Positions 1-2,573 of a stretch of 64,000 bases of DNA are shown here, in pieces. A program made the position numbers and the translations under genes. Below the pieces are notes generated by a model. It was not told the DNA's origin. It saw nothing but the letters and a program-made list of their open reading frames with translations, and did not search any database. Numbering within the stretch: position 1 is the first letter of the stretch; the number at the start of each line of letters is the position of its first letter. The stretch is from Stutzerimonas stutzeri (GTDB taxonomy: Bacteria; Pseudomonadota; Gammaproteobacteria; Pseudomonadales; Pseudomonadaceae), in contig NZ_JYHV01000004.1 of NCBI RefSeq assembly GCF_000952685.1, positions 62,001 through 126,000 on the forward strand, in the 5' to 3' direction.

Positions 1-255
1 GATGGTCTTGCCGGACTCGGCGACCGCCGGGTCCAGACGCATGCGTTCGAGTTCTTCGCGAAAGACTGCGACTTCTTCAGCGCTGAACAGATTGGGGACG
101 ACCAGATAGCCGTCACGCTCGTAGCGCTCGATCTGCTCCGGCGAGAGGGGCGCATTGGCCAGGTCGTTGCGGTAGACAACCGGATCCAGACGCTCCTGCC
201 AGCTGGGCTCGTCTTGCTGGCGTGAAGGGTACAGGTCGGCTTGTGCGGGGTTCAC
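1..255 (-). CDS. ectD: Ectoine hydroxylase EctD (5' part, runs off window)
   Basis: The first 85 codons of EctD, the Fe(II)/2-oxoglutarate dioxygenase that converts ectoine to 5-hydroxyectoine in the cytoplasm. The visible N-terminus contains the family segment LSPEQIERYERDGYLVVPNL followed by FSAEEVAVFREELERMR; the iron-binding and 2-oxoglutarate residues lie beyond the window edge. The start is GTG at 255, preceded by a GGAGAG ribosome site about 7 bases upstream. It is the fourth gene of the ect operon and is separated from ectC by a strong hairpin. Assignment rests on N-terminal similarity and operon position. Confidence 0.9.
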   Translation of the reverse strand, partial: MNPAQADLYPSRQQDEPSWQERLDPVVYRNDLANAPLSPEQIERYERDGYLVVPNLFSAEEVAVFREELERMRLDPAVAESGKTI

Positions 256-319: not shown

Positions 320-715
320 TCAAACGGTTTCGGCCTCAAGCGGATAGACACCGCTCTCGTCGTGTACTTCCTTGCCATTGAGTGGCGGGTTGAACACGCA
401 GGCCATCTTCATGTCCTCGCTGCCGCCGCGCAGTAGGTGCTCGTCGTGCTTGTCGAGGATGTACAGGGTGCCGGGCTCGATCTTGTAGATCTTGCCGTCG
501 GCGATGGTTTCGACCTCACCGTTACCGCTGATGCAATACACCGACTCCAGATGGTTCTGGTAGTGGATATGCGTTTCGGTGTTGGCATAGATGGTGGTGA
601 TGTGGAACGAGAAGCCCATCTTGTCATCCTTGAGCAACATGCGGGTGCTGTCCCAAGTCTCGGTCTTGATCTTGCGGTTGGACTGCTCGCAGTCAGCCAG
701 GGTACGTACGATCAT
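320..715 (-). CDS. ectC: L-ectoine synthase EctC
   Basis: Cupin-fold enzyme that closes N-gamma-acetyl-2,4-diaminobutyrate to ectoine, the last step of ectoine synthesis. The 131-residue length is typical. The three metal-ligand positions known from the characterised enzyme are all present: Glu57 (in NHLES), Tyr85 (in GTLYILD) and His93 (in DEHLLRGG). The C-terminus carries the conserved [17 protein letters not shown] segment. ATG start at 715 with an AAGGA site upstream. It sits 12 bases downstream of ectB and is followed by the ectC/ectD hairpin. Confidence 0.97.
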
Positions 716-727
716 ATTTTCGATTCC

Positions 728-2005
728 TTAAGAGGCAGCCTGATTGTTGTCCTGTTCGGACATCACGGCGGCAAACGCCTTGTCCAGAATGCTCATGGCC
801 TTGTCGATCTGCTCTTCGCTGATGATCAGCGGGCAGAGGCACTTGACCACTTCGCTGTGGGCGCCGCTGGTTTCGATCACCAGGCCGTTTTCGAAAGCGT
901 GGCGGCAGATGGCGGCGGCGGTTTCGCCGTCCGGGCAGCTGATGCCGATCATCATGCCGCGGCCTTTGACGAACAGCGAATCAGGGCCGTAACGGCGGAC
1001 GATCTTGTGCATGCCATCGGCGATGCGCTTGCCCTTGGCCTGAACGCTCTTGGCGAACTGGTCATCGCTCCAGAAGTGCTCGATGGCCGCAGCAGCGGTA
1101 ACGAAGGCGTGGTTGTTGCCGCGGAAGGTGCCGTTGTGCTCGCCCGGCTTCCACTGGTCCAGCTCCTTGCGCAGCAGCACCATGGCGAACGGCAGACCGA
1201 AGCCCGAAAGGGACTTGGACAGCGTGATCATGTCCGGCTTGATGCCCATCTCTTCGAAGCTGAAGAAGCTACCGGTACGCCCGCAGCCGGCCTGGATGTC
1301 GTCGATGATCAGCAGCATCTCGTGCTTGCGGCAGAGTTTTTCCAGCTTGCGGATCCACTCGGCCGACGCGGCGTTGAGGCCGCCTTCGCCCTGGACCACT
1401 TCGACGATCACCGCGGCGGGTTTGTCGATGCCGCTGGAAGGGTCTGTAAGCAGCTTGTCCATCATGCCGATGGTGTTGACCTTCTCGCCGAAGTAATTGG
1501 CGTACGGCATGCGGCTGACGTCGGTCAGCGGAACGCCGGCAGCGCCACGGTGATGCTTGTTGCCGGTCGCCGCGAGGGCGCCGATGCTGCAACCGTGGAA
1601 GCCGTTGGTGAAGCTGATCACGTTGTTGCGGCCGGTCACCTTGCGCGCCAGCTTCAGCGCGGCCTCGACCGCGTTGGTGCCGGTCGGGCCGGTGAACTGC
1701 ATGACGTAGTCCATGTTGCGCGGCTTGAGGATCAGCCGATCGAAGGTCGACAGGAAGCGCTCCTTCGCATCGGAATACATGTCCAGGCCGTGGGTGATGC
1801 CATCGGCGGCGATGTAATCGAGCAGCGCCTGCTTCAGTACCGGATGGTTATGGCCGTAGTTGAGCGTGCCGGCTCCGGCGAGGAAGTCGATGTAGTGCTT
1901 GCCTTCACGGGTGATCAGTTCTGCGCCGCGGGCCTGCTTGAAGACCACGGGGAAGGAGCGGCAATAACTACGGACACCGGATTCGTGCAGTTCGAACGTT
2001 TGCAT
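728..2005 (-). CDS. ectB: Diaminobutyrate-2-oxoglutarate transaminase EctB
   Basis: PLP-dependent class III aminotransferase making L-2,4-diaminobutyrate from aspartate semialdehyde and glutamate, the first ectoine step. From the internal ATG at 2005 it is 425 residues, the normal EctB length. Visible landmarks are GPTGTNAVEAALKLAR (about 106-121), IIDDIQAGCGRTG (about 233-245) and the PLP lysine Lys264 in TLSKSLSGFG. The start has its own AAAGGA site 6 bases upstream, so independent translation is likely even though the ectA frame reads straight into it. It lies 12 bases upstream of ectC. Confidence 0.93.
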   Translation of the reverse strand: MQTFELHESGVRSYCRSFPVVFKQARGAELITREGKHYIDFLAGAGTLNYGHNHPVLKQALLDYIAADGITHGLDMYSDAKERFLSTFDRLILKPRNMDYVMQFTGPTGTNAVEAALKLARKVTGRNNVISFTNGFHGCSIGALAATGNKHHRGAAGVPLTDVSRMPYANYFGEKVNTIGMMDKLLTDPSSGIDKPAAVIVEVVQGEGGLNAASAEWIRKLEKLCRKHEMLLIIDDIQAGCGRTGSFFSFEEMGIKPDMITLSKSLSGFGLPFAMVLLRKELDQWKPGEHNGTFRGNNHAFVTAAAAIEHFWSDDQFAKSVQAKGKRIADGMHKIVRRYGPDSLFVKGRGMMIGISCPDGETAAAICRHAFENGLVIETSGAHSEVVKCLCPLIISEEQIDKAMSILDKAFAAVMSEQDNNQAAS

Positions 2006-2536
2006 AGGGTTTCCTTTGATTCGTTGTCTGGAGTCGGTGGCGTCGAACGGACCCGCCCGATAAAGCTCTTCGTCTTCGTGTTGCCCGGCGAAGTGCTTGG
2101 CCCGAGAGAACAGCGTGCGAGTGCTGTAGTCGGTCTCCAGTTGAGCGAAAGCCTTCTTGAACAACGCCTGCGAGGCGCCGTTGTCAGGCGAGATGGTCGT
2201 TTCCAGGTGACGGACGCCCTGTTCTCTGGCGACCCGAGTGACCAGGGCCATCAGCATGCGCAGTGCCAGACCCTGGCCCCGCATCGAAGCGTCTACCGCG
2301 ACTTGCCAGACGAACAGCGTGTCGGGGCGAGCGGGAGGGCGATAACCGGAAATGAAACCTACCAACTGGCCGTTTGCGTTTTCGGCCGCGATGGAGGTGT
2401 CGGCGAAGTCGGAACACTGCAGCAGGTTGCAGTACACCGAGTTGGTATCCAGAGGCTGGCAGCGTGCTACCAGATCATGGAGGGCAGAACCGTCGCCGTC
2501 GGTTGGGCGACGGAGCGTTACGGTAGGAACACTCAA
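728..2536 (-). CDS. ectA: EctA (diaminobutyrate acetyltransferase) continuous in frame with EctB
   Basis: The EctA part (about 176 residues) is a GNAT acetyltransferase that acetylates L-2,4-diaminobutyrate; it has the acetyl-CoA loop VAVDASMRGQGLALRML and ISPDNGASQALFKKAF. The EctA frame has no stop codon: after HEDEELYRAGPF it runs through DATDSRQRIKGNP directly into the EctB start methionine and on to the ectB stop. None of the three frames on this strand contains a stop in that junction. I chose the TTG start at 2536, which has AAAGGA 6 bases upstream; an in-frame GTG at 2584 would extend the protein by 16 residues including SINNPKG, seen in relatives, but it falls inside the predicted promoter. 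Whether a fused EctAB is made or the sequence lost a stop by substitution is open. Confidence 0.75.
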   Translation of the reverse strand: MSVPTVTLRRPTDGDGSALHDLVARCQPLDTNSVYCNLLQCSDFADTSIAAENANGQLVGFISGYRPPARPDTLFVWQVAVDASMRGQGLALRMLMALVTRVAREQGVRHLETTISPDNGASQALFKKAFAQLETDYSTRTLFSRAKHFAGQHEDEELYRAGPFDATDSRQRIKGNPMQTFELHESGVRSYCRSFPVVFKQARGAELITREGKHYIDFLAGAGTLNYGHNHPVLKQALLDYIAADGITHGLDMYSDAKERFLSTFDRLILKPRNMDYVMQFTGPTGTNAVEAALKLARKVTGRNNVISFTNGFHGCSIGALAATGNKHHRGAAGVPLTDVSRMPYANYFGEKVNTIGMMDKLLTDPSSGIDKPAAVIVEVVQGEGGLNAASAEWIRKLEKLCRKHEMLLIIDDIQAGCGRTGSFFSFEEMGIKPDMITLSKSLSGFGLPFAMVLLRKELDQWKPGEHNGTFRGNNHAFVTAAAAIEHFWSDDQFAKSVQAKGKRIADGMHKIVRRYGPDSLFVKGRGMMIGISCPDGETAAAICRHAFENGLVIETSGAHSEVVKCLCPLIISEEQIDKAMSILDKAFAAVMSEQDNNQAAS

Positions 2537-2573
2537 AACAAATCCTTTGGGGTTGTTGATTGAATCCTTTATT

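Follow-up and report, generated by a model that had tools for sequence, protein, structure and literature searches.

An In-Frame EctA–EctB Fusion Recurs in Stutzerimonas and Beyond and Retains an Internal EctB Start

Genes and Features at the ect Locus

In the window—the whole 64,000-nt stretch of DNA analyzed here, from a salt-tolerant bacterium—ectA lacks a stop codon: its frame continues across a linker of 13 residues to the EctB start methionine and on to the ectB stop (Table 1). Translation of the minus strand from 2536 to 728 agrees with the original prediction on this point; none of the three minus-strand frames has a stop within the linker, and the AAAGGA that the prediction placed 6 bases before EctB's own ATG is found at 2017..2012. 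Both halves of the frame exceed their equivalog cut-offs, with the TIGR02406 match spanning fusion residues 8–164 and the TIGR02407 match residues 180–589. The frame is free of stops as far back as 2584 (618 aa if counted from there); TTG 2534–2536, conserved across the genus as the start of EctA, was chosen over this upstream extension.

Table 1. Features of the ect locus in the window
Feature	Position	Strand	Details
ectAB fused ORF	728..2536	-	602 aa, calculated 65.8 kDa, TTG start
EctA part, diaminobutyrate acetyltransferase, residues 1–164	2045..2536	-	TIGR02406 190.7 bits, cut-off 120.6
Linker DATDSRQRIKGNP, 13 residues	2006..2044	-	Between EctA core and EctB start
EctB part, diaminobutyrate--2-oxoglutarate transaminase, 425 aa	731..2005	-	TIGR02407 652.9 bits, cut-off 552.2
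EctB's own ATG	2005	-	Free EctB 46.4 kDa (calculated)
Internal Shine-Dalgarno-like AAAGGA	2012..2017	-	6 nt upstream of EctB ATG
ectAB Shine-Dalgarno-like AAAGGA	2543..2548	-	6 nt upstream of TTG 2536
ectC, ectoine synthase	320..715	-	PF06339 and NF009806 above cut-off; 12 nt after ectAB stop
ectD, ectoine hydroxylase, 5′ part	1..255	-	Frame open from 255 (GTG start by analyst's choice); runs past window edge

ectC, ectD, and ask all lie downstream of ectAB in the same direction, the arrangement of an ectABCD-ask operon except that no stop divides ectA and ectB into separate frames. The profile search placed the ectD match (TIGR02408, 405.7 bits) at G000:C19:61368-62192; ask, an ectoine-type aspartate kinase (NF006614, 743.9 bits), is outside the window, and zwf adjoins the locus on the side opposite ectC.

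A profile search of the genome found no second EctA or EctB above cut-off. The sole EctA and the sole EctB thus lie in the fused frame. Free EctA is not encoded; unless it is released by cleavage, EctA must act tethered, at the N-terminal end of the fusion protein. A lysine in the motif LSKSLSG at fusion residue 441 (EctB residue 264) is likely the equivalent of the PLP-binding Lys274 of P. lautus EctB (PMC6915088). An AlphaFold2 model of the fusion (48 sequences; mean pLDDT 72.6) was uninformative on assembly; its pLDDT falls below 50 at residues 167–194, and the linker, modeled with low confidence, is probably flexible.

Distribution of the Fusion within the Genus

We searched 56 Stutzerimonas genomes, including that of the window, for EctA. 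A full-length match was present in 55; in the remaining genome (G019, 73% complete) the match is a fragment at a contig end. The junction, read in 55 loci, is fused in 13 and split in 42, and every split locus has the ATGA overlap (−4) between ectA and ectB. The fusions comprise the window's clade A (n = 9), clade B (G002 and G014), and clade C (G009 and G025). Clade A is monophyletic with an SH-aLRT of 99 in a quick tree of 98 rows and is supported at 100/99 in a careful tree that kept four of its nine rows. Several fused genomes—G025, G037, G046, G048, and G050—are listed with one or two contigs. A separate search, which overlaps the survey so that some genomes occur in both, contained at least five fused loci among the matches listed for its best 80 loci: Pseudomonas sp. 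Q2-TVG4-2, MAG UBA10829, S. stutzeri CLN100, S. azotifigens 115A1, and S. nosocomialis A31/70. The original prediction spoke of one strain and proposed comparison with the ect loci of related strains; in that comparison the fusion is not confined to a single strain but is fixed in a nine-genome clade and recurs elsewhere.

The DNA upstream of ectB is similar in split and fused species. In the junction alignment, clade A differs from its split relatives by one extra base ~27 nt before the ectB ATG and has ATGC in place of ATGA, so that the old overlapping stop is gone. A one-base insertion thus moved clade A ectA into the ectB frame, and the linker 3′ of the inserted base corresponds to what was once an out-of-frame translation of the ectA 3′ end. 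The original prediction that no single indel within this linker would recreate a stop holds; the clade has lost its overlapping ATGA stop too. The alignment excludes a stop-codon substitution as the origin of clade A, since it shows the insertion instead. Clades B and C likewise differ from split relatives by length changes; they reach the ectB frame by other such changes, with different linkers and with ATGA retained. In 40 of the 42 split loci, no stop interrupts the ectB frame over at least the 21 codons preceding its ATG, which leaves room for many small indels to join the two genes. As a forerunner of the fusion, programmed frameshifting is not supported: the ectB frame is stopped three codons before the ATG in 2 of 42, read-through is not conserved in split relatives, and the fusion is a single frame.

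One genome, G040, is the sister of split G023 by gyrB, yet around ectA its ect block resembles fused relatives more closely. When L231 (G040:C41:1-20000) was compared with L230 and L232, its flanks were 95–96% identical to G023; its ectA window was 80% identical to G023 and 90% to G026. This mismatch suggests that a fused allele moved by recombination and stayed, and the allele probably entered the G040 lineage by homologous recombination.

Recurrence outside the Genus and Number of Origins

Broader samples, which overlap one another and all come from one phylum, were searched in the same terms. The family sample held EctA in 113 of 398 genomes, 55 of them Stutzerimonas; among the 58 EctA genomes outside the genus, no frame was longer than 271. 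EctA was found in 148 of 293 genomes of the order, where eight genomes besides the window's had frames of 607–662 aa. All eight read as in-frame EctA–EctB; EctA was above cut-off in each by genome search, and EctB was above cut-off in each of the four examined as whole proteins (L226, L227, L228, and L229). The class (EctA in 43/369) and phylum (51/398) samples yielded no further frame long enough. A 337-aa frame in G421 proved to be split when read, and the open frames of 303–317 aa in G760, G883, and G941 are too short for a full fusion. In L228:379-2600 (G579), the fused ectAB frame ends at 2199, where the ectC frame starts, a contact resembling that of ectA and ectB in split Stutzerimonas.

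The careful tree comprised 45 rows with EctA and EctB, picked from the 98 of the quick tree; three rows in which no EctB was found (L137, L139, and L145) were left out. Fusion requires six changes on the careful tree, five of them forced by well-supported branches, and seven on the quick tree, again with five forced and with L133 apart from the other f28 fusions. Tree tests, whose groups were named after the quick tree was known, rejected one origin for all fusions (a single clade of fused rows, AU p 7e-8), clades A, B, and C as one Stutzerimonas clade (p 0.003), and A and B as one clade (p 0.017); B and C as one clade was compatible with the data (p 0.29). Grouping L134 with the f28 fusions was also rejected, and for both L134 and L135 the sister row is split and carries the same genus code as its partner. 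The minimum number of origins suggested by these results is five (A, B/C, the f28 group, L134, and L135), with several of the rows concerned sitting on long branches. The change counts give no direction; we favor gain over loss because split Stutzerimonas loci are uniformly ATGA.

Plasmids gave 572 records with matches, 36 of them covering at least 80% of the query. Among the 20 listed, ectA and ectB are annotated as two features in 19 and one has no annotation. Three of the four single-piece alignments listed likewise gave no fusion, with H12 and H19 annotated as separate genes and H11 containing the EctB frame alone. A Sphingomonas sp. MEA3-1 plasmid (L267, CM003352.1) has EctB in its own frame. 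Its tblastn match extends over EctA, yet no EctA frame of at least 140 aa with a start is listed; the ectA of this plasmid may be short or interrupted.

Selection on the Fused Frame

In clade A, pN/pS is 0.06 for the EctA part and 0.06 for the EctB part, and purifying selection on both means that the tethered EctA, judged by its pattern of substitution, is evidently functional. The linker is less uniform. Its pN/pS is 0.18 in clade A (~13 codons, pairwise averages), 0.46 in four g71 species, and above 1 in clade B on very few sites; clade C has no synonymous change. Stop counts gave no significant evidence of selection for a stop-free linker in a clade A simulation: all nine linkers stayed open in 57% of neutral runs (34% with equal base frequencies), the probability of any stop among them being 0.43, or 0.66 with equal base frequencies. 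Evidence for selection on the fused frame is, on these patterns, mixed.

The strongest alternative is a tolerated accident, in which occasional small indels fuse ATGA-overlapping genes and the long form suffices and drifts, with no gain from tethering. We regard this as a live possibility, somewhat short of probable; it disputes only that tethering is favored and is compatible with two products. The open ectB frame upstream of the ATG in split loci offers many indels that could fuse the genes, linkers differ between clades and vary by whole codons inside clade A, and chance could well leave a linker without stops; but the fusion arose at least five times by our count, a fused allele was apparently carried to another lineage by recombination, and the g71 linker is exactly 63 nt in four of four species whose fourfold sites are 43–55% different, though it is 75 nt in L128, which is more distant.

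A gene pair with the identical overlap bears on the same question. trpB and trpA overlap by ATGA in 29 of 30 loci read (TGATG in the remaining one), yet no fusion of the two occurs in any of the 54 genomes where trpB matched strongly, which argues against fusion as a simple by-product of such overlaps. For 53 of the 54 this was judged by frame length (404–471 aa, short of both genes); G003, read directly, has the ATGA as well, and its long trpB frame is an upstream extension rather than a fusion. The control is a small one, consisting of one gene pair in which changes to the TrpB tail may be more constrained.

Retention of the Internal EctB Start

The ATG at the EctB start is kept in all 21 fused loci (13 Stutzerimonas and 8 others), mostly with a Shine-Dalgarno-like site. 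When clade A was simulated at the fourfold-site rate, 99.85% of runs ended with the ATG lost from one or more of the nine tips; the figure was 97.7% when base frequencies were set equal, 95% when the rate was halved, and 77% when it was quartered. At the internal EctB starts of the 21 fused loci, the duplex formed with the 16S tail has a median energy of −6.0 kcal/mol, against −2.8 kcal/mol at 304 other in-frame ATGs in those genes, 17 of which are as strong as the EctB start of their own gene. The internal site is weaker in fused loci than in split relatives (median −7.7 kcal/mol, n = 42), and certain distant fused loci have a weak one (L133, −4.7 kcal/mol); ATGs as strong as the internal start number 4 of 10 others in L131 and 3 of 18 in G048.

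Codon choice adds to this picture. The linker glycine codon 9 nt before the ATG is GGA in 12 of the 13 fused Stutzerimonas loci and GGT in one, against 15 GGA among 702 glycine codons (2.1%) outside the linker (Fisher p 7e-18 with relatedness ignored; 1e-5 for three groups each with GGA). From this bias, the internal Shine-Dalgarno seems to be under selection at the nucleotide level. It is accordingly quite unlikely, in our judgment, that the fusion protein is the sole product and EctB is always tethered: both domains do lie within one continuous frame, but the internal ATG and Shine-Dalgarno, if relics, have kept the ATG in 21 of 21 loci and the rare GGA in 12 of 13. A sequencing or assembly error at the junction can be set aside, ruled out as it is by independent genomes, for although fused and split frames differ by one base only, the same kind of junction occurs in nine clade A genomes, some in one or two contigs, and clade A carries the second change from ATGA to ATGC plus whole-codon indels.

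The EctA start is TTG in all 42 split loci and in 11 of 13 fused loci of the genus, the other two having TTG one codon upstream; this is a conserved rare start codon across the genus. TTG is usually taken as a weaker start codon. Given a weak EctA start, free EctB may be more abundant than EctAB.

One Gene, Two Predicted Products

Taken together, the comparative data make it probable that one gene with two starts yields a 66-kDa EctA–EctB enzyme plus free 46-kDa EctB. The original prediction had guessed at these two products, and clade fixation, recurrence, and the kept internal Shine-Dalgarno and ATG all lend the guess support. Ribosomes starting at the TTG would make the 602-residue EctA–linker–EctB enzyme, and those starting at the internal Shine-Dalgarno and ATG would make free EctB.

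EctB makes diaminobutyrate and EctA acetylates it (PMC6915088). The EctB of P. lautus is described as a tetramer in the same source, that of two other species was called a hexamer in older reports, and the EctA crystal structure 3D3S is a dimer (PMC5924519). A pure dimer–tetramer fusion could cross-link, and free EctB, if made and co-assembled with EctAB, would relieve this cross-linking; it would keep EctB in excess of EctA and let the assembly close. The ATGA overlap of split genes suggests termination–reinitiation coupling (PMC10666635), which the fusion would swap for coupling of another kind.

A fuller version of this model holds that the one-gene, two-protein design evolved repeatedly under selection, with EctA only tethered, the tethered form diluted by free EctB in a mixed EctAB/EctB oligomer, diaminobutyrate handed between successive active sites, and the ratio of EctA to EctB fixed. 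We advance it tentatively, as a rather doubtful extension.

Ectoine is an industrial product and a salt protectant, and the two enzymes that open its dedicated pathway are generally regarded as separate proteins. An EctA–EctB fusion that occurs naturally and recurs supplies ready-made candidates for a bifunctional enzyme, and close relatives with and without tethering constitute a natural experiment on substrate hand-over. The junctions also illustrate how genes overlapping by ATGA can become, by a simple route, a single fused gene in which a second start is retained.

Published Readings and Known Systems

Earlier surveys seem to have read fused ectAB as loss of ectA. For S. nosocomialis, the published cluster is ectBCD-ask with no ectA (PMC10165715). 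In strain A31/70, ectA is present and fused to ectB, both above cut-off, so the published reading is corrected for this strain, and the reported loss appears, from its sequence, to be an EctA–EctB fusion. S. kirkiae, reported as ectBC-ask in the same source, is probably a second case: an ectD match is found in 53 of 56 genus genomes and is missing only in G009, G025, and the incomplete G019, so that exactly clade C lacks ectD and would fit the S. kirkiae arrangement. Fusion is also a likely candidate reason for the six genomes of one branch reported without ectA (PMC8792951). Our search, largely of open-access literature with subscription journals mostly outside it, found no natural EctA–EctB fusion.

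Three known systems offer points of comparison. Like the canonical ectABCD-ask operon of Stutzerimonas, for example that of P. stutzeri A1501, the window's locus has ectC, ectD, and ask together with ectA–ectB beside zwf, and the TTG start of ectA is common to both; it differs in that ectA and ectB form one frame and, in clade A, in having no ATGA overlap. EctA–EctC and EctA–EctC–EctD fusions occur in eukaryotes (PMC5796728) and likewise join ectoine pathway enzymes in one chain, but their partner is EctC rather than EctB, and the accessible text of that source mentions no internal start. Some prokaryotic fusions of neighboring genes match frameshifted gene pairs elsewhere (PMC3711429). As described there, two adjacent genes are joined by a frame transition, as in ectAB; in contrast to those pairs, the ectAB indel is fixed in the DNA, and a recoding signal is unneeded.
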